A stretch of 64,000 nt of DNA from NCBI GenBank assembly GCA_958295745.1, contig OY282370.1, forward strand, positions 1,421,724 through 1,485,723. Direction: 5' to 3'. Both the position numbers and the translations under genes were made by a program. The first letter of the stretch is position 1. Each line of letters starts with the position of its first letter. Below the pieces are notes generated by a model. It was not told where the DNA came from and made no database searches. It saw nothing but the letters and a program-made list of their open reading frames with translations. This document shows, piece by piece, positions 40,341 to 50,818 of the stretch. Origin of the DNA: an uncultured Acidimicrobiia bacterium. Its GTDB lineage: Bacteria; Actinomycetota; Acidimicrobiia; Spongiisociales; Spongiisociaceae.

Positions 40341-40766
40341 ATGAGTTTCGAATTCGATTACGGGTCCTCAGGTGGCGGATCGGCGGGCGGCCGCCGCCCG
40401 GGGTCGAGAGGGCGCCGGGCAAGGCCCCCGCGCCGCCGCGGCGGGATGATCTGGGTTCTGTGGTTCTGCGCCGCTCTTCTCGGTGCGGGCGCGTCCGTAT
40501 CCCTGGCGGTCGTCGCGGGCGAGGTGCGGGCCATCGGCGACGCCGCCTTCTGGAGGGCCGCGATAGGGATCGCGGCGGCGCTCCTTCTGTCCCTCCCCGG
40601 GTTCTCCTTCTATTGGCTCGCCCGCTCCAGGGAACACCACAACTGGCACGAACGGGTGTGGCGCCCAACCGCCTTGGTCAGGATCTCGTTGCTTTCCTCG
40701 GTTGGAGCGGCCCTCTGGTGTGGATACCTGATCGCCGTACGCGTGGCGCGTGAGTGGCCGACATGA
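40341..40766 (+). CDS. Small two-TM membrane protein with FEF-YG tag, first gene of the tubulin/VWA operon
   Basis: This 141-aa protein starts MSFEFDYGSS, then a Gly/Arg-rich stretch (about 12-36). Two or three hydrophobic segments follow (about 38-60, 72-92, 115-132). The same opening MxFEFxYG plus Arg-rich linker plus TM layout occurs in the last protein of the operon (49757), though the rest is unrelated. The start at 40341 is preferred over GTG 40332, whose bases overlap the ribosome binding site GAGGTG. Its stop overlaps the ATG of the VWA gene. Function unknown; a membrane scaffold or recruitment role is a guess. Confidence 0.72.
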   Translation: MSFEFDYGSSGGGSAGGRRPGSRGRRARPPRRRGGMIWVLWFCAALLGAGASVSLAVVAGEVRAIGDAAFWRAAIGIAAALLLSLPGFSFYWLARSREHHNWHERVWRPTALVRISLLSSVGAALWCGYLIAVRVAREWPT

Positions 40767-43210
40767 GCAGGGCGCGCCGGGTATGGGAACGGTGGATCGG
40801 TTCGGTACAGGTCATCATCTGGGCCGTGGTGATCGTCGCCGCCGGGGTCATGTCTCCGGTCTTGCCTTCCGCCGCCCAGGAATCATCGAGCGGCCAGACC
40901 GCCGGAGGGTGGTGCCCGGCCGGTACGGAGTCGTTGGATGTACTGATCCTCATGGACGAGTCGAGGTCTCTGAGAAGGACGGATCCGGACAGGAAAAGAA
41001 TTGAGGCGGTGGAGACCCTCATCGGCTCGTTTGAGGAGGAGTCGGCCAGAGGAGTGCGGGTAAGGGTGGCATTAGCCGCCTTTGGAACCGAATTCGATCT
41101 GCGAAAGGATTTCACTGACCTGAGGGCGGAAGGCACGGAGAATCTCATCGCCGAGGTCAAGGGGTTCAACCAGGACGACTGGAACACCGACTACGTGCTC
41201 GCCCTATACGGCGTGCTCGGTCTTGACTGGTCCGCCGAGTGCAACAAGGTCGTCTGGTACACCGACGGTGAACACGATTTGACCGACGCACCCAGGGGCG
41301 GCAGTGTCAGCAGGGCGCCTCGCGACTACGACGCTCAGGGGCGGGAGATTGAGAACGCAACCGTCGGCCGCGCCGTACAGGAGTTGCTGATTCCGGCGGT
41401 GTGCGGCGGCGAAGAGGCAGATGAGGTCGCTTCTGGATACGGTGATCTGTCCGACAAGCTCAAGGAACGCGAAGTGGAGATCGAATTCGCCCTCTATTAC
41501 TTCGGTGAGCTTGAGGAGGGCGATTCCAAGGCTCTTATCGAGAGTATGGAGAGGAAGGAATGCGGAGACGGCATCGAAATTGTTACGCGAGAGATTGATC
41601 AAGGAAAGACCATTGTCATCGAGCCCCCTATCACTACTACCACTATAACTACTATTACTCCTACTACTACAACCACGACCACTCTCCCACCACCTCCTCC
41701 GCCGGTCTGCCAGGGGCTTCCCGAACCGCAGTGGAACGCCGGAAGAGACATCGTATGGTCGGGCGTCCTTCCTGATGGAATAGCGCCGGCGTTCGTGCGT
41801 TCGGTGATCATCAGGGCGACCGGAGACCGCCCTAGATTGTCGACCGACCACCCTTCCGCCGTCGAGGAAGAAGACGGCGCCGCCCGTCGGCTCACATTGG
41901 ACTTTTCGGAACAGCCCTTGTCTTCGTATTCCCCGGCTGATATCGCTGTTCAGGGAGAGGGGGTAGACGAATCTTGCCTGGCGGTGGTGCTCAACCCGCC
42001 CGCCCTCGAAGCGCGTGTCGTGACCAGTCCGATCTTCCCCGACACCCCTGGCGTCGAGATACAGGTCCAGACAGACGGAACCTCCCTCGCAGAAGCCGAT
42101 GAGGAATACCTGACGGTGTCTATAGACGGCGGAGAACACCTGAGGCCCGATGCGGTCGACGGGGGGCGGTTACGCCTGCCGCCGCAGGATGAGGTCGGCG
42201 ATCATGCCTTCGAGGTCAGGCTGGAGTCCCTCTATTCCGATCCGGCCATTGCATCCGGCGCTTTCACCGTCTCTCCCAAACCGGACGGCCCCATCCTCGG
42301 ACTGGCCGGATCCGGGTTGGAACCGGTCGCGGACACCGAGTTCACCATCCCGATCACCATCGACGACGAAGGTCGGGAGGGAGAGATCCGCCTGCTGCCC
42401 GCCGATCCCATCGTGGGCACCGACGGGGCGGCGGTGAGCGTGGAGGTTCTGTTCCCGGACGGCAGCCCCGTATGGAGCTCGGGCGATCCCTTGCCCGACG
42501 CCCTCACCGTTGTCCTCGGCGATTCCGTTCAGACCCCTGAAGACCACGTTCTTCACTTCGACTACGAAAGCGACCCATCGGACCCGGCCGGCGATCTTCA
42601 GAAGATTCCGATCGCTGTGCCGGTCGACATCGACCATCCCCGCAACCTGGTGCTCGAGGCGTTCATCACGGCCGCCTTGCTGTTCTTGTTGTTGCTGATC
42701 ATCTGGGCCTGGCTCTTCGGGATCAACCGGATCGCCGGACGCATCCGCCGCCCGAGAAGGATGCGCTACAGCCGCTTCCGCGTCGATGAAGGGTGGGCGC
42801 TCGCCGCCGACCTCACACGCGATAGTCACCGCTCGGTCAAACACACCCCGGGTTGGCTCAAAGGGGGTCGGCTGCGGGCCACGCGCAAGACGCCCTTGCG
42901 GGCATGGCGCTTTCCCTATGTGGATCTGTCGATGGAAGGCAGCCGCCGGTTCATAGGAATGATCGGCGGGGGTGTGGTCGCTACAGAGATTTCAGGCCGA
43001 TCGGAGAAACTACCATCCGAAAGTCGGCTGCACAATCCCATCGTGCTGGTAGACGTGTCCGATGGGCCGCCCTTCGAAGGAGTGGTGATGGCGCCCATCG
43101 ATTCATCGAGAGACAGGTCGAGGCCTGCCGAGGAGCAGCTCGCCGAGCACGTACGGAGGGCGCTTGAGCAGCTGCCTAGACCAGATCAGATAACACGCGA
43201 CCTGAAGTAG
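40763..43210 (+). CDS. Membrane-anchored von Willebrand factor A protein
   Basis: This 815-aa protein has a signal peptide or N-terminal anchor (to about residue 35), then an extracytoplasmic VWA domain (about 53-280). Its metal-ion-dependent adhesion site is intact: DESRS at 65-69, a Thr near 141 (NTDY) and Asp in YTDGEHD near 166. A Thr-then-Pro linker (about 290-315) leads to beta-rich domains, a transmembrane helix at about 633-655 (rich in Leu/Ile) and a basic cytosolic tail of about 160 residues. VWA domains bind protein partners. The tail could link to the tubulin-like protein encoded next, eight bases downstream. The gene overlaps its predecessor by ATGA. Confidence 0.82.
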   Translation: MSRARRVWERWIGSVQVIIWAVVIVAAGVMSPVLPSAAQESSSGQTAGGWCPAGTESLDVLILMDESRSLRRTDPDRKRIEAVETLIGSFEEESARGVRVRVALAAFGTEFDLRKDFTDLRAEGTENLIAEVKGFNQDDWNTDYVLALYGVLGLDWSAECNKVVWYTDGEHDLTDAPRGGSVSRAPRDYDAQGREIENATVGRAVQELLIPAVCGGEEADEVASGYGDLSDKLKEREVEIEFALYYFGELEEGDSKALIESMERKECGDGIEIVTREIDQGKTIVIEPPITTTTITTITPTTTTTTTLPPPPPPVCQGLPEPQWNAGRDIVWSGVLPDGIAPAFVRSVIIRATGDRPRLSTDHPSAVEEEDGAARRLTLDFSEQPLSSYSPADIAVQGEGVDESCLAVVLNPPALEARVVTSPIFPDTPGVEIQVQTDGTSLAEADEEYLTVSIDGGEHLRPDAVDGGRLRLPPQDEVGDHAFEVRLESLYSDPAIASGAFTVSPKPDGPILGLAGSGLEPVADTEFTIPITIDDEGREGEIRLLPADPIVGTDGAAVSVEVLFPDGSPVWSSGDPLPDALTVVLGDSVQTPEDHVLHFDYESDPSDPAGDLQKIPIAVPVDIDHPRNLVLEAFITAALLFLLLLIIWAWLFGINRIAGRIRRPRRMRYSRFRVDEGWALAADLTRDSHRSVKHTPGWLKGGRLRATRKTPLRAWRFPYVDLSMEGSRRFIGMIGGGVVATEISGRSEKLPSESRLHNPIVLVDVSDGPPFEGVVMAPIDSSRDRSRPAEEQLAEHVRRALEQLPRPDQITRDLK

Positions 43211-43218
43211 GGAGAATC

Positions 43219-46200
43219 ATGCTTAGAAAGTTCCTGATAATCGGACTGGGCGGTTCCGGCGGCCTGACCTTGCGCTACCTGAAGCAGCATCTGGAGGAGA
43301 GGCTCGAGGAGATCGGCTGGGACGAAGGGATGCCCAAAGGCTGGCAGTTTCTCCATATTGACACTCCGACCCGACCGGAAAACCCGCCGTTGCCGGGGTC
43401 TCCGGCACTGCTGGATCCCGACGAGTATCTTCCTCTGGTTAGTCCGGGGATCAACCTCGAGACCATCGTCGGCCGCTTGGAGGCAAAGGGACAGGACTTC
43501 GCGGGCCGGTTGGTGCCCTCCCATATGTACGGTATTCCCATCCGTGAGGGTGCTGGCCAATATCGGGCGGTGGGCCGGATTATAGGTTTGTATTACGCCG
43601 ACCGTATAAAGCGACGTCTCACCATCAAGAGAACAGCGCTCATGTCGGCCGGGGCAGCCCCCCAACTAGACCTGCTGGCCGAACAGTTCTTTGGCGACCG
43701 GTTGACGGGTGAGTCCTCGGATCCGGTAGCTATTGTTATTTCGTCTTTGGCGGGTGGCACCGGGGCGGGCATCCTGATCGACGTATGCGATATACTCCGA
43801 GCGGGCGGACGAGAATGGTTGGGCCATTCGATCGGCATTCTCTACTCGGCAGATGTTTTCGCCGAACTTGGCCCCGACGCTGGTGCCGGTATCCAGCCCA
43901 ACACTGCTGCGGCAGTGGCTGAGCTGCTCCATGGGTACTTTGCCGACGGGTTATTCACCCCGCCGGATGGGGGTGCTATCCAGCAACGTTCCGGTCCGGC
44001 TTTTCCATATCTAGTCGGTCATGCCAACACCAAGGGCGTGAGCTTCGGCAACCAGGTTGCTGTTTACCGGTTCATGGCGCGTTGCCTCTCGGCGGTGATG
44101 ACGGATTGGCACATCCAGAACGAATTTACCACCAGGATGATCGCCAACTGGGACGTGCGGACCGGGAAATTCCCGGATAGCTCAGATTCGTGGATGTTGC
44201 CTTCGCCTCACCGTTACCAGGGGGCTCTCCAGGCCCTCGGGTTTGCGGAGGTGGACCTCGGGGTGAGCCGGTTGAGGGCGTACGCCGAACAACGGATCAC
44301 CCGTGATGCGGTCGAGTGGGTGCTCGATGGACACATGAAATTGGCCGAGGAGTGGCCTGACTACGAGAGAGCTACCGTGGAGGAGGTAGTCGAGGGTCTG
44401 GCCGATCAGGCTTTCACCAGGTTCCTGAACGACTGTGGCCTCAACGAACGAGGACGCGAGCACAACCAGATCCTCGACGCGATCGCAGTGTCTGATGAAG
44501 AACTCCGAGCTGAATGCACCCGCGTTGCCAGGGAAGTCCATGAGGGCGGTCGAGAACATTTCGGAAAGAAGGCCCGCGTCGGGGAATGGGTGGACTTTAT
44601 CGTCGATGAGGTGAGAGCGCGTCGGGCTGGAGTACTCAAGTATCTGGAAGACCGTCTTCGGGACGCCTGTCTGAAATGGGTGAATAACATCCCGGATCGC
44701 ATTCTGGATGTGGTAGGGGAGACCTTGGCGGAGCAAGGGGCAGAAGTGGCTCTGAAACTCCTCGCCAAGACCGACGCGGAAATGGACCACGTGAAAAAAG
44801 AGCTCCACGGCGAGCGACAGGAGGAGCTCACCCTGGCCGAGTACCTCCGGTCGGATGTGTCGGCTGCCATAGAGGCTTCGCGCGGTACGCTGTCCAAAGA
44901 CAGCGAGTTGGTCGAAAAGGCCCTGCGAGCGTCTATCCAAACCGGCATCGTTCGCCGCTACAACGCCGAGCACCGCGCACTGGCGGCGCGACTGTCCGAG
45001 GACCTGCGTAGCGGGGTGCTTGATCCCTTGACTAGAGCCCTGCGCAACGCGGTCGATGAGCTGCGCTTGGCCGTCGAGGCCGACAAAGGGGCGGCCGTGT
45101 CCACATCGATTGAGGATTGGCCTCGTCATAATCCACCCTCCGACCAGCGCGTTCCCGATGCCCTGAAACCGGGGGGGAGCGTCATGTTGGTGATTGATGC
45201 GGACGAATTTCCTGACCTGTTCGACGACTTGACTGCCAGGTCAACCGGCCTCGAAGAAAGGATGGACGCTCGGCGTTCGGTTCGGCGGACCGTGATATCG
45301 GGCGACGCGGACAGGCCCGTGATGGGGCTGTGGATCGACACCGACTCCATATGGACGGCGTCCGAGTGGTTGACGGTCGACGCACCGCCCAACAAAGCCT
45401 CGTTCACGGTGCGTATCTATCGTGACGATCTTCTAGAGCGGTCCCGAGCATGGTTGAATACCGACGGATCGGCCTGGAAGGTATTCCTTTCCCAAGGGTT
45501 GCGCGGTTACCTCTCCGACCAGCTACCTCCTGCCGAGCGCGTCCCTCGGGAAGAGCAATTTTTCAGTGCCCTCGTCTCTGCCTTTGAGGCAGCTGAGCCC
45601 CTGGCTTCTATTGACCCCGATATGCTTCACGAGGTTCATCCTGGATCGGGACGTTCTGGATCGCCACTGGATTTTCGTCCTCACACCAGCCCGATTCCAG
45701 TGGCCGGACTTCCCGTCGAGAAGCAGGTGCGCGATTTCCTGGTCGGTCGTTTCAAGGGCGTCCAAGACAACTACAAGCAGGCAGTCGATGATGCCCTCGA
45801 TCAGTCCGAGCGCGAGACCAGGGTGGCGGTATACGCCTCTTTGGGGGGAGCTCTGCATCCGATGGTGTTCGAATCTCTCAACAAGCCCATTGCCGAGGCG
45901 TGGGAGCGGGCGCGCAGAGACTCGTCCCTGACTCGTTTCTGGCAAGCGAGAAGATCGCGCTTGTTGTGGATGGGAGCTCCCATACCCCGCCCGGCTCTGC
46001 AGTCCATGGTGAGAGGGTGGTTCATTGGCCGGTTGCTGGGCCTGATCCAGATCCAGGGTAACCGTGCTGGTTTCGAAACCGAAGCAGGCCCCTTCGAGTT
46101 CGACACCATGCTTCCGGTTCCGGGACGCCAGCCGGTGGCGTTTCTTGCCACCCTCTTGGAGTCTTTACCGCTGGCAGTTCCAGTAGCCGTTCACAATAGG

Positions 46201-46572
46201 CAACCGGGAATATATTTGAGACCGTACACCCATTTGATCGAGTGGGGGAGCGAATCGTACACGTCGGATGTGGAGTCCTTCCGGCATCCCAGCCAGGCGC
46301 TCTCCGACTGGTTGGAGTATGGAACCACTCCGGGCGACAGGGAACCTGTGATAAGAGGTCCAAATCGTCCGGCCCGAAGGAAAGCGGTGATTGATCATCT
46401 TCAGGAGACGATCGGTTACTACAGGCGACAGGCCGAGATCGATCGTAGTAGAGACCAAACCCCGAGGAATGCCTGGCTCGGCATCGCTGAGATCATCGAC
46501 GAGGCGTTGATCGAGATCATTAGTTGTTTGGAAGACGAGGAAGACCGGGACAACAGAAAGGCACCGTTATGA
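43219..46572 (+). CDS. Tubulin/FtsZ-like GTPase-superfamily protein, giant
   Basis: This 1,117-aa protein has FtsZ/tubulin-like N-terminal features: a first glycine-rich loop in FLIIGLGGSGGLTLRYL (about 5-21) and the signature loop SSLAGGTGAGILIDV (about 175-189), equivalent to the GGGTGSG T4 loop that contacts GTP phosphates. This is the layout of the 'Tubulin like' family (PF13809). The C-terminal ~700 residues are helical and Arg/Glu-rich without recognised domains. Family members have been linked by genome context to VWA proteins and membrane remodelling. GGGAG precedes the ATG. Its stop overlaps the ATG of the polytopic protein gene. GTP binding is inferred; polymerisation is unknown. 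Confidence 0.8.
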   Translation: MLRKFLIIGLGGSGGLTLRYLKQHLEERLEEIGWDEGMPKGWQFLHIDTPTRPENPPLPGSPALLDPDEYLPLVSPGINLETIVGRLEAKGQDFAGRLVPSHMYGIPIREGAGQYRAVGRIIGLYYADRIKRRLTIKRTALMSAGAAPQLDLLAEQFFGDRLTGESSDPVAIVISSLAGGTGAGILIDVCDILRAGGREWLGHSIGILYSADVFAELGPDAGAGIQPNTAAAVAELLHGYFADGLFTPPDGGAIQQRSGPAFPYLVGHANTKGVSFGNQVAVYRFMARCLSAVMTDWHIQNEFTTRMIANWDVRTGKFPDSSDSWMLPSPHRYQGALQALGFAEVDLGVSRLRAYAEQRITRDAVEWVLDGHMKLAEEWPDYERATVEEVVEGLADQAFTRFLNDCGLNERGREHNQILDAIAVSDEELRAECTRVAREVHEGGREHFGKKARVGEWVDFIVDEVRARRAGVLKYLEDRLRDACLKWVNNIPDRILDVVGETLAEQGAEVALKLLAKTDAEMDHVKKELHGERQEELTLAEYLRSDVSAAIEASRGTLSKDSELVEKALRASIQTGIVRRYNAEHRALAARLSEDLRSGVLDPLTRALRNAVDELRLAVEADKGAAVSTSIEDWPRHNPPSDQRVPDALKPGGSVMLVIDADEFPDLFDDLTARSTGLEERMDARRSVRRTVISGDADRPVMGLWIDTDSIWTASEWLTVDAPPNKASFTVRIYRDDLLERSRAWLNTDGSAWKVFLSQGLRGYLSDQLPPAERVPREEQFFSALVSAFEAAEPLASIDPDMLHEVHPGSGRSGSPLDFRPHTSPIPVAGLPVEKQVRDFLVGRFKGVQDNYKQAVDDALDQSERETRVAVYASLGGALHPMVFESLNKPIAEAWERARRDSSLTRFWQARRSRLLWMGAPIPRPALQSMVRGWFIGRLLGLIQIQGNRAGFETEAGPFEFDTMLPVPGRQPVAFLATLLESLPLAVPVAVHNRQPGIYLRPYTHLIEWGSESYTSDVESFRHPSQALSDWLEYGTTPGDREPVIRGPNRPARRKAVIDHLQETIGYYRRQAEIDRSRDQTPRNAWLGIAEIIDEALIEIISCLEDEEDRDNRKAPL

Positions 46573-49500
46573 GCGCTCAGCGTGTCATTCTAATCACACA
46601 TGGAAGCCCGGAAACACAAGCCGCGGTCGGCCTGCTTACCGAGTGGGCCCGCCACGGCCTCGTCCATCCTTTCATCTCCTACACCGACGACCAAACCGCG
46701 TTCTGTGTAGGGACCCGCGGGGTCGGTGAACCAACGTCGGTGTTCGCGATACTCGGTCGGCAAGACTTGGAAGTGGTCCGTGTGGCGGCGCTGGTCGGCC
46801 ACGACCGAAAGGAGGCGGGCGATCTCGCGTCGAGGACACGCGATCTGGTCGACAAGATCAGGGATGACTTAGCACCGGGCGGCTTACAGGTGGTGGAGGT
46901 GCGGATATGGGCGCCTTACGATCCCCGTTCGGAGGGCGACTGGACCGCGCCCGAAGGTGCCTTCTCCACCGCGGCGGAGGCCAACCTGGTCTTGGTGCCC
47001 GAGGACAGACAAACGGGGGCCAGGGTGGGCATCCCGCTCGCCCGCTCTGACGACAGCACCAGTGCCTACGGGTCGCATGTGGCCACCGAAACGGCGACCG
47101 CGCTGGGGATGTGGTCGAGCATGTCCGAGGCGCCGGTGGACGCCTTGGAGGCTGGGGTTATCGGCTACGGCGAGCCCAAAGTACATCTGACCCGCTCCTT
47201 CGTGCGGATCGCGGAGATACCCGCCGTCAGCCTGGCCGGCGCCGCCGATCACGGTGGGATGCTCAGGGTGCCGCCCGGATGCACGGAAGCTCCCTATCCG
47301 TTGGAGAGCATCGCCTATGCGCAAGACCGCATAGGAAGCCTGCTCGACCGTGAGCTCATCAAGACCTCGCCTATCCAACGTACCAAACATCTCGGCTTGG
47401 TCCAGCTCATACGCGAGGTAGGCCGCGGGATGGTGAGCTCACTTCGCTACATGTTTTCGATCTCCGGGGATGTGGTCGATGCGCTACGGGATATGACCGG
47501 TCGCGTCATGCAGGAGGCGGTAGGCCGCGACTCTGTCCTGCGGGTGATCTGGCGCGGCAAGCCCTCCGAGGGCGAGGAGGAGCGGGCCATAGACACCGAG
47601 AAACTGATCGAAACCATCCGTCGGGGCCGGGCTTTGGAGGGAGGGGTCCGAATCGACCAGAAACTCTGGACCGATGTAGGGCAAGCGGTCTTCTCTTTGG
47701 CCGACGGCGGGGAGATGCCCGAAGGGGTGGCGCCGCAGAGGATCGACGATCGCAATGTGATAGTCAAAGAGGTCGGGATGATCGCTCCCGCCCACGGTCC
47801 CGGCTTGGCCGACGATATTCGGGCGGATTCCCTCGACGAGGCGCCCGCCACCCTGCTGGGGCGGCTGGGCGCCCGGCTGCGTCGAGCCGAAGGCCAGAGC
47901 CGCCGCCGATTCGAGATCCTGGTCGAGCGGTCCGAGAACCTGTTCGAAGTAGAACAACCCCCGGCGCTCACCACCGCCGGGGTGGTCACCTCGGTTTCCA
48001 TCACCTTGTTCGTTGTCCTGTTGCTGCTCCTCACCGGTTTGGTGGAGCTGACAGGCATCACAGGAATGGGAGGGACGGCCCGAGCCTGGATATGGGTGGG
48101 CGTCACCGCGGTCTATGCATTGGGGTTGGTGTTCCTTTCCCAAGCGGTGGTGGCCCGTTTCAGGGCCGAATCTCCGGCGCAGCCGGACGGGTCCCCCCCT
48201 CCGGCGACCGAGGCCGAAGAGGAAGAAGGGGAAGGGGCCGCGGACGAGCCGGAAAGCGAGGGAGCGGAAGATCACCCCTCACCGTCCACCTTTCGGTTGT
48301 GGTGGAGTAAGGCCACCAAGTGGTCGGCCGACTTGCCCAATTTCAACGCCGTTGTCTTGTTGGCGGTGCTGGCGGGCGTCATCGCCGCTGTGGCGACTGC
48401 GGTGGTTTCTCGGTTGGGCGTCGGAGAGACGGCGACCGGGACAGGCGTCATCGACACCGTGGCCACCGCGGTGGCCAGAGGGCTGTTGGCCAGGGAAGAC
48501 CTGGCGATCGGTATCACGGTGACCCTGATCTTCTATGCAATCCTCCTCGCCTTCCAGCTCGACAGGGAGGCCCATCGCTCTCTGGAGAGCTTCCGTCAAG
48601 TTCGGCTGTTGTTCTTCTTCACGGCGATCTACGGCGCCTTCGGTCTGGTCGGATTGCTGGGGCGCGACAACGGATGGTACGGGGAAGCTCGGTCGGAGGG
48701 GTTCGGCGACCTCTGGATTGGCATGGCAGTGCTCCTGACTTCGATCCTCCTCCTGCTGATGGCTATGGCCCACGACCGTTACAGGAAGGACAATCGAGCG
48801 CGAGACAAGGTATCCGACCTCGAACGCGAGATCGCGGCGGCCGTCGATACGCAGTGGGTCACCGAGGAGGCCCTCGAACAGTTCATAGGGTCGGCGGCTG
48901 CCTGGGCGGCTGTCATGTGGAAGCCCTTCGGCGAGTTCGACCCCGGCGAGGGCCGCACCCGCGACGGATTCGCCTTCGAGGTTTTGAAGGCGGAGACGCG
49001 GGCCTTTTCGGTGACTCCTCTCGGCGCGATGTCGATGCGGGAGCGCATGATGAAGGAGCTGGCCAAGCCGGGCTGGCTCAGCCGCCGCTACCAGACGGCG
49101 GCCGAGGCGTACCGCCGCAGGCGGGCGGTCGAGAAAGGCGAAGAGCCGGACGACATACTGCCGCCCGACCAGGATGCTCGTGAGGTGCGTACCGTGCCGC
49201 CAAAGGATCGCCCGAAGGTGAGCGGCCGCTGGCGGTTTGTGAACGACCTCACGGAGGGAATCTACGACCGGGAACTCTCCCGCGTTCTCGACGCCCTCGA
49301 TCATGCCAACGCGGCGGAATGGGTCTACAAGCAGGAGGGAACCCTCGAAGCCTCGGAAACGGGCGGCGAGTCCCTAGAACAGTATCTGCGGGCGGTGGTT
49401 CCCCAAGGCGCACCCGAGGTGTCCTATGTCTATTTCGGGGAGGACGCGCGGCTGGACGCCGACCGCTCATACCGGCCGGTGCTGTGGTGGCCGTCCGCTC

Positions 49501-49739
49501 TGCTCGACCAACCCGACGGCCGATCCTTGCAGTGCAACATACGAAGCCTGGTCAACGGGGATCTGGCGATCATGTCTGTCCGTCACGACCGGGCCGGTCC
49601 GTACCCTCAGAGCGCCCTGTTCGGGCCCGCCACAGGCGAGGACGAGGGTGAAGAAGACCCGGATCCCGGCGGCGGCCGGTCCCTGCGGGGGCAGGGACTG
49701 AGGCGGTTGCGCGGAGACGGGCGGATCCCGGAACTGTAG
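46569..49739 (+). CDS. Large polytopic membrane protein of the tubulin/VWA operon
   Basis: This 1,056-aa protein is translationally coupled (ATGA) to the tubulin-like gene. Residues 1-460 are soluble, opening with an alternating strand pattern (RVILITHGSPETQ) that looks like an alpha/beta domain but matches no family I recognise. About six transmembrane segments follow at roughly 468-492, 505-527, 591-613, 646-664, 677-697 and 715-735. An acidic Glu/Pro linker (about 531-574) lies between the second and third. The C-terminal ~320 residues are soluble and charged. It is probably the membrane platform of the system. No channel or enzyme signature was seen. Confidence 0.75.
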   Translation: MSAQRVILITHGSPETQAAVGLLTEWARHGLVHPFISYTDDQTAFCVGTRGVGEPTSVFAILGRQDLEVVRVAALVGHDRKEAGDLASRTRDLVDKIRDDLAPGGLQVVEVRIWAPYDPRSEGDWTAPEGAFSTAAEANLVLVPEDRQTGARVGIPLARSDDSTSAYGSHVATETATALGMWSSMSEAPVDALEAGVIGYGEPKVHLTRSFVRIAEIPAVSLAGAADHGGMLRVPPGCTEAPYPLESIAYAQDRIGSLLDRELIKTSPIQRTKHLGLVQLIREVGRGMVSSLRYMFSISGDVVDALRDMTGRVMQEAVGRDSVLRVIWRGKPSEGEEERAIDTEKLIETIRRGRALEGGVRIDQKLWTDVGQAVFSLADGGEMPEGVAPQRIDDRNVIVKEVGMIAPAHGPGLADDIRADSLDEAPATLLGRLGARLRRAEGQSRRRFEILVERSENLFEVEQPPALTTAGVVTSVSITLFVVLLLLLTGLVELTGITGMGGTARAWIWVGVTAVYALGLVFLSQAVVARFRAESPAQPDGSPPPATEAEEEEGEGAADEPESEGAEDHPSPSTFRLWWSKATKWSADLPNFNAVVLLAVLAGVIAAVATAVVSRLGVGETATGTGVIDTVATAVARGLLAREDLAIGITVTLIFYAILLAFQLDREAHRSLESFRQVRLLFFFTAIYGAFGLVGLLGRDNGWYGEARSEGFGDLWIGMAVLLTSILLLLMAMAHDRYRKDNRARDKVSDLEREIAAAVDTQWVTEEALEQFIGSAAAWAAVMWKPFGEFDPGEGRTRDGFAFEVLKAETRAFSVTPLGAMSMRERMMKELAKPGWLSRRYQTAAEAYRRRRAVEKGEEPDDILPPDQDAREVRTVPPKDRPKVSGRWRFVNDLTEGIYDRELSRVLDALDHANAAEWVYKQEGTLEASETGGESLEQYLRAVVPQGAPEVSYVYFGEDARLDADRSYRPVLWWPSALLDQPDGRSLQCNIRSLVNGDLAIMSVRHDRAGPYPQSALFGPATGEDEGEEDPDPGGGRSLRGQGLRRLRGDGRIPEL

Positions 49740-49756: not shown

Positions 49757-50818
49757 ATGGGTTTCGAGTTCGAGTATGGGCGTCCGGACAAGAAACCCGA
49801 ACCCGCTTCACGCCCTCCTCGCCGTCCCCGGCGTCGCGGAGGATTCGATCTGCGGCGGCTTCCCGATCTATGGCGGCGGTTGCCCCGATGGGGGAAGGCA
49901 ACCGCTGTAGTCGTTCTCATCCTGGCGGCGTCGACGATCATCACCGGCCGGGATCGGGTGCCGGAGATGACCCCCGACGACATAGCGGCGGCCCTGCCGG
50001 CGGTCGATACGAATCCGGCGACGACCGCTCGACCGGCAACCACCAGGCCGGCAACCACCCGACCTGCGCCCACCGAACCCGAGCGGCCGCCGGAAACGAC
50101 CGCGGTTGCTGTAACGCCGACTACCTCCCCGCCCGAGCCTCCGGACACGACCATCGCGCCGCCCCCCGCAACAGTTGCCTCTTCCGCTCCGCCTGCGCCT
50201 CCGTCCACGACCGTGGACTGGGCCGAGTTGGCCCTGTCCGTCGTGCTCGTCCAAGCCGACGGGTGCTCATTCGTCCCTTCCGGTGTGTCCAGCACAGGCT
50301 CCGGTACGGTGGTGCTGGACGGAGGCTACGTGCTCACCAATGCGCATGTGGTCGTCGACATCGACGGGAGCGGCAAGGTATGCCGGGACCTGACGGTCTG
50401 GTTCACCAGATCCTTCGAGGAGGAGCCGTCCGATTGGGTGGAGGCGAACCTCGTCGCGGAGGACGGGCGGCTCGACTTGGCGGTACTGCAGCTGAGGGCG
50501 CCGGTTCCCGCCGCCATGAGCATCAGGATCGCCGAGCAGCGGTTGGAACCGGGGGAGGCCATCCGCATCCTCGGATACCCGGGTATGGGCGGCATGACCA
50601 TGACCCTGACCAGGGGGGCGTATTCAGGAATAGTCGACTACGACGGCGAGACATACATAAAGACCGACGCCGACATCAGCGAGGGCAACAGCGGCGGGGC
50701 GGCCTTCGACGAGGCGGGGGTGTTCATAGGGGTTCCCACCGCGGGCAACGAACAGGTGGGCCTGCTGATACCCGCCGGGGTAGCCGAACAGTTCCTGGCC
50801 AGTGCACTAGCGTCGTAA
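49757..50818 (+). CDS. Membrane-anchored trypsin-like (S1C) serine protease with FEF-YG tag
   Basis: This 353-aa protein opens MGFEFEYGRP, then a Pro/Arg-rich stretch, one transmembrane segment (about 45-65), a Thr/Pro-rich linker (about 82-150) and a trypsin-fold domain. The catalytic triad is present: His197 (TNAHVV), Asp240 (RLDLAVL) and Ser312 (EGNSGGAAF). No PDZ domain follows, unlike HtrA/DegP. The protease should face outside the cytoplasm, on the same side as the VWA domain. It ends the operon, 17 nt after the polytopic protein gene, and shares its N-terminal tag with the first gene product. It might process the VWA protein or an external target. Confidence 0.84.
   Translation: MGFEFEYGRPDKKPEPASRPPRRPRRRGGFDLRRLPDLWRRLPRWGKATAVVVLILAASTIITGRDRVPEMTPDDIAAALPAVDTNPATTARPATTRPATTRPAPTEPERPPETTAVAVTPTTSPPEPPDTTIAPPPATVASSAPPAPPSTTVDWAELALSVVLVQADGCSFVPSGVSSTGSGTVVLDGGYVLTNAHVVVDIDGSGKVCRDLTVWFTRSFEEEPSDWVEANLVAEDGRLDLAVLQLRAPVPAAMSIRIAEQRLEPGEAIRILGYPGMGGMTMTLTRGAYSGIVDYDGETYIKTDADISEGNSGGAAFDEAGVFIGVPTAGNEQVGLLIPAGVAEQFLASALAS

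Follow-up and report, generated by a model that had tools for sequence, protein, structure and literature searches.

Why do two otherwise unrelated membrane proteins, encoded at opposite ends of one operon, begin with nearly the same residues? This question is raised by a locus of an uncultured Acidimicrobiia bacterium (Spongiisociaceae), of which a stretch of 64,000 nucleotides, here called the window, was analyzed. A sequence-only reading had noted the protein starts MSFEFDYG at position 40341 and MGFEFEYG at position 49757 and had assigned them to the first and the last protein of an operon. Both starts are present in the sequence, each with an ATG: the small membrane protein begins at 40341 with MSFEFDYGSSGGG... 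and the protease at 49757 with MGFEFEYGRPDKK.... The open reading frames form a tight run of five genes on the plus strand, in the order small protein, vWA protein, tubulin-like protein, polytopic protein and protease, and the gene coordinates place the small-protein gene first and the protease gene last, as had been claimed. The features are as follows:

40341..40766, + strand: small membrane protein of 141 aa with three predicted membrane helices, N-terminus predicted inside (open reading frame with ATG start)
40347..40364, + strand: tag FEFDYG, residues 3-8 of the small protein
40763..43210, + strand: vWA-domain protein with N-terminal signal/anchor, one hydrophobic segment near residue 632 and a MIDAS-like DESRS
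43219..46572, + strand: tubulin-like protein with an extended C-terminal part; Tubulin_2, PF13809 (Pfam; loop GGTGAG)
46569..49739, + strand: polytopic protein without known family; six hydrophobic segments from about residue 471 to about residue 735
49757..50818, + strand: type II membrane-anchored trypsin-like protease, Trypsin_2 (Pfam; motifs NAH, LDLAV, GNSGG)
49763..49780, + strand: tag FEFEYG, residues 3-8 of the protease

The ATG of the vWA gene at 40763 overlaps the end of the small-protein gene (40766), the ATG of the polytopic gene at 46569 overlaps the stop of the tubulin-like gene, and the protease gene starts 17 nt past the polytopic stop (49739). A promoter scan found none, and a terminator scan gave 7 hits versus 6.8 expected by chance. 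The tubulin-like protein matches Tubulin_2 strongly (PF13809, 135.8 bits, cut-off 27) and carries a C-terminal part of about 750 residues; its profile had no match at E<=0.01 among solved structures. It contains an internal FxF[DE] string, PFEFDT, from residue 958 on, and the polytopic protein has a GEF[DE] string, GEFD, at about residue 789. The counterparts in the sister genome are PFTFES and GEFE, and neither string occurs in the other aligned sequences. The vWA protein scores slightly below the Pfam cut-off for VWA_2 (25.8 bits, cut-off 27); the MIDAS-like DESRS is nevertheless present. The protease belongs to Trypsin_2 (85.6 bits, cut-off 27.6), and its catalytic His, Asp and Ser motifs were all found. 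Assignment to the HtrA/Do family (TIGR02037, 69.5 bits against a curated cut-off of 416.2) or to the MarP family (47 bits against 250) was rejected. For the polytopic protein, no match was obtained with Pfam and curated family profiles, its structure model (mean pLDDT 71.8) had no PDB match at E<=0.001, and the sole match of its profile to solved structures was at chance level. PADLOC gave only weak protease-domain matches.

On the basis of its predicted proteins, the operon belongs to the vWA/Tubulin_2 (FtsZl1) kind, which was described in 2010 from gene context by Makarova and Koonin (PMC2875224). According to the accessible parts of that report, an FtsZ-like protein with a coiled coil and an alpha-helical C-terminal domain is encoded beside a vWA protein linked to the membrane, together with lineage-specific membrane proteins, and a role at the membrane was proposed. 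The MIDAS motif DxSxS is intact in most of these vWA proteins, and a kinase, a diverged GTPase and OmpA-type proteins are frequent partners but not required. In the available text of PMC9871819, these FtsZ-like proteins are treated as the same as Tubulin_2. The window resembles such operons in its Tubulin_2 protein, the vWA protein with DESRS and the lineage-specific membrane proteins; it differs in the protease and in the tag shared by membrane proteins, neither of which is described in those parts of PMC2875224. No Pfam match to the kinase, GTPase or OmpA-type partners was found in the five operon proteins. A second comparison is offered by the GAP1-N2 tubulin/vWA systems of actinobacteria (Kaur et al., 2020; PMC7159879). 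As far as the accessible text goes, these also have one tubulin gene, whose product is extended by a long C-terminal part, and a membrane-bound vWA protein, and they include GAP1-N2 and zinc-ribbon GTPase genes and FNIII proteins; in some planctomycete relatives, trypsin is fused to GYF domains. In contrast, GAP1, GTPase, FNIII and HRDC domains had no Pfam match in the five proteins of the window, although such domains may have no Pfam model. In the literature searched, which mostly does not cover subscription papers, we found no shared tag on membrane proteins of vWA/Tubulin_2 operons, and no tested function of Tubulin_2/vWA operons was found there.

The two tagged proteins were said to have nothing else in common. 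They are indeed unrelated, but this was slightly too strong, because both tails are also rich in Arg and Pro. The charge before the first hydrophobic segment is +7 in the small protein (residues 1-35) and +8 in the protease (residues 1-46). According to the positive-inside rule, a positively charged flank stays in the cytosol; therefore, the tags are predicted to face the cytosol and the protease domain to lie outside. The model of the small protein (mean pLDDT 59, low confidence) has helices at residues 34-58, 68-100 and 111-138 and no structure in residues 1-33. Within the tags, the codons of the two genes differ at residues 4, 6 and 7 (GAA/GAG, GAT/GAG, TAC/TAT). The likeness is therefore maintained at the protein level, and recent DNA copying was set aside as an explanation.

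How specific the tag is for this operon can be seen from its distribution. In the own genome of 3,311,971 bases, F-E-F-[DE]-Y, searched as DNA, has 2 matches, which are located at these two starts. The wider pattern F-[DE]-F-[DE]-[FY] has 8 matches in four genomes (2 in the own genome, 5 in the sister genome G004, 1 in G001 and 0 in G093); 4 of them lie at protein starts, namely those of the operon proteins in the own genome and G004, and the other 4 are internal. When the pattern was anchored to a start codon followed by any residue, the 138 genomes of the order yielded 18 matches in 16 genomes, with two matches in G000 and G004 only. Four of these 18 lie at believable protein starts, all of them in this operon (window and sister genome). 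The remaining 14, including 9 that follow a CTG, do not resemble protein starts, their reading frames staying open for another 43 to 377 codons in the upstream direction. The possibility that the tag is common in unrelated proteins was thereby checked in 138 genomes, and the outcome favors the tag, since 4/4 plausible starts are in the operon. Among the relatives surveyed, no other protein was found to start with the tag, and this suggests a common partner inside the cell for both proteins.

Conservation among orthologues gives a more mixed picture. The tubulin-like gene is present in 10 of the 138 genomes of the order, own genome counted, and the small-protein orthologue is readable in seven of them besides the own genome. 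Conservation of the tag, proposed earlier as a check, was found in its exact form in 1/7 (LNFEFEYG in G004) and in a loose form, [FY]-x-F-[DE], in 2/7 (MSYRFESD in G001 and MSDDFRFEHP in G093), but in 4/7 VPIPG stands in its place (G023, G036, G050 and G091, three of one genus and one further genome). Among the six orthologues without an adjacent protease, two have [FY]-x-F-[DE] and four VPIPG. In G006, no small protein was read. A protease as in the window is found only in G004 and begins with VGFEFDYE, without the final G. The two genes were found together in two genomes only, the own genome and G004, and both carry the tag on both proteins; the exact tag pair is thus observed in two related genomes. 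G076 encodes a protease at the same place, which is untagged, as is its small protein (named by position alone). Between window and sister genome, the tag of the small protein is 5/7 identical (changes S/N and D/E) versus 6/23 for the remaining tail. For the protease the values are 5/7 versus 14/31, so that its tail is also fairly conserved. We also looked for a second protein starting with VPIPG in the four VPIPG genomes. Of 45 matches, 30 loci were read; ten frames of more than 60 aa in these 30 loci had VPIPG at most 15 codons from a possible start. Four of the ten were the small proteins, and the sequences of the other six revealed no protease and no type II membrane peptidase. In the MAG G001, the tubulin-like gene (L052:9953-13202) lies in two overlapping frames, which indicates a frameshift or an assembly error.

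A scan of genome contigs for the operon gave 39 loci. A tubulin-like match was found in 19/395 genomes of the class and 16/396 of the phylum, many of the phylum matches being weak. The gene order small protein, vWA, tubulin-like, polytopic recurs across lineages, and in several of them a protease follows. The letters of the tails differ between lineages, and resemblances were seen within single loci. In L136, DPW/DPF is common to the small protein and a type II protein with HELGH, which is M6-like at 24 bits, under the cut-off of 110.8; this tagged protein was found in 0/3 related genomes searched. The partners are therefore of different kinds, trypsin-like in the window and an M6-like metallopeptidase in L136. 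In L135, the tails of the small protein and its partner are similar (MDDSAFDYIDAPEV and MDDFYFDDPEV), in L056 WFDPSD and WGFDS occur on the small protein and a second tailed membrane protein, and in L173 three neighbors, two of them DUF4190, carry DPF/DPW/FDF. L053 and L039 have RPPPRR-like tails on the small protein and on the protein at the protease position, which in L039 is interrupted by the contig end before the catalytic part. A weak likeness between VPVPAP of a type II protein and VPIPG of the small protein was seen in L026, L027 and L111.

The type II membrane protein of these last three loci (L026:6416-7222, L027:2106-2744, L111:854-1492; reverse strand) is encoded by a gene that overlaps the beginning of the gene for the small protein. 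In L026 and L027, a HELAHH motif was read in the outside part, and the L111 sequence as read ends before that site; the L027 protein is SprT-like at 15.1 bits, below the cut-off of 25.6. In L059 (5787-6794), the gene directly upstream of that of the small protein encodes a type II membrane protein, the outside part of which contains a GmrSD_C-type domain (65.9 bits, cut-off 23). In one clade (L036, L037, L046, L050 and L131), the polytopic protein is extended at its N-terminus, and the extension closes with (F)DYRRL or a similar string (EFDYSRL, EFDYRRL, GFDYRRL, ADYRRL, VDYRRL); the polytopic protein of the window has no such extension.

For a statistical comparison, 51 loci with a tubulin-like gene were scanned. 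Thirteen pairs were scored in which the small protein could be read and another membrane protein with a tail was encoded within the cluster or beside it; the tests over 12 lineages omit L024, the sister of the window. L026 was dropped because it nearly duplicates L027, L030 and L055 because the tail of their small protein could not be read (their protease is like that of L053), and L035, L038 and L131 because they have a protease but no small protein that could be read. Summed over the 12 lineages, the small proteins scored 492 with their own partners and, on average, 358 when partners were exchanged (p=0.00025). Without the window p was 0.0012, without the three Pro/Arg-rich lineages 0.004, and without these and the window 0.038. 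In a second test, the partner was ranked among the remaining frames of its own locus with 100 aa or more, all of which served as controls, spurious ones included. It ranked at p<0.05 in 8/12 lineages. In the window, the protease tail matches the small-protein tail better than any of the 173 control frames, and elsewhere the controls equal or better were 0/72 (L029), 0/64 (L039), 1/46 (L053), 0/67 (L056), 0/30 (L135), 1/52 (L136) and 1/60 (L173). In L173, which has two partners, the one not used is the single control frame that beats the used one. The 4/12 lineages that fail had 18/31 (L040), 13/60 (L059), 23/57 (L027) and 34/67 (L172); L040, L059 and L172 showed no tail match between small protein and partner, and in the VPIPG genus the neighboring membrane peptidase matches weakly (VPVP), with 23/57 controls equal. 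For the sister L024, outside the count, 1/76 control frames were equal or better. The combined p of the locus test is 3e-6, or 3e-5 without the window, and the first 14 residues alone give a weaker signal (combined p 0.0016 without the window). When the letters were shuffled within pairs, 4/12 remained below 0.05 (window, L039, L056 and L135); therefore, composition accounts for much of the rest, and richness in Arg and Pro contributes to the signal across lineages. The pairs of L056, L135, L136 and L173 had been spotted by eye before testing, which favors the result. Because several pairs were first seen by eye and the controls include spurious frames, the lineage-specific likeness between the tail of the small protein and that of its partner, often a type II anchored protease predicted to lie outside, is treated as suggestive.

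The tag pair itself is real, specific for the operon and more than chance. That two N-termini resemble each other by accident over a stretch of merely six to eight residues is conceivable in principle and here hardly credible, given the rarity of the tag in the genome and the order, its recurrence in the sister genome and the locus controls (0/173 as good in the window). We consider it probable that FEF[DE]Y acts as a short linear motif for docking, carried by two unrelated membrane proteins at their cytosolic N-termini, and that both copies bind the same surface. A common docking site would be expected to produce just this pattern, in which two unrelated proteins of the operon each bear a short motif at the end of a flexible tail. 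The docking tag had already been proposed; operon specificity, retention in the sister genome, synonymous codons and the resemblance in 8/12 lineages speak for it, but retention among orthologues is mixed. A known parallel are the encapsulation peptides of microcompartments, which, in the descriptions available in part, are likewise short targeting peptides attached to several unrelated proteins by a disordered linker. They are described as helical and shell-binding, whereas the tag comprises six to eight residues and sits on membrane proteins. An encapsulation peptide was rejected here, with no helix predicted in residues 1-33 (low confidence) and no match to a shell protein in the operon.

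Could the two tails instead bind each other, or the small protein act as receptor of the protease? Aromatic and acidic residues alternate in F-E-F-[DE]-Y, so that such strands might pair, perhaps with the Arg-rich stretch that follows in both tails, and tails are alike within a lineage, as homotypic pairing requires. Two acidic strands would repel each other, however, and a tag-like N-terminus of the small protein is retained where no protease lies beside the operon (L052, L058), which makes mutual binding rather unlikely. The position of the tag immediately behind both start codons would also fit a feature that tunes translation start or membrane insertion. This appears unlikely, since the amino acids are retained while the codons vary, no further protein start with the tag exists among the 138 genomes and such features are normally less residue-specific. 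Short N-terminal tags can act as degradation signals, and a cytosolic protease adaptor might thus remove both proteins together. No result obtained here favors such a turnover signal, and the letters differ strongly between lineages although the housekeeping degradation machinery is conserved; we regard it as very unlikely.

If docking is the correct reading, the tags on the small protein and the protease would bind one common cytosolic surface of the machinery encoded by the operon. Candidate partners, at the level of a guess, are the tubulin-like protein and those parts of the polytopic protein that lie in the cytosol. We infer that the small protein would serve as an adaptor, brought together with the outside-facing protease at the same membrane site, and that the protease would be placed or gated from within the cell. 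More tentatively, and with considerable doubt, vWA/Tubulin_2 operons in general may use a fast-changing, lineage-specific docking code that is common to the adaptor and to unrelated type II hydrolases outside. Hydrolases of trypsin-like, M6-like or HELAHH type would then carry the same cytosolic tag as the adaptor, new ones would join by acquiring the current tag, and an intracellular tubulin-like assembly would place and control proteolysis outside.

The tag on the small protein and on the protease predicted to face outward provides a concrete and testable link between a cytosolic tubulin-like protein and extracellular events, and the tag peptide may be used as a bait for the partner. If tags match within each lineage, the cargo proteins of these operons would be identifiable from sequence alone.
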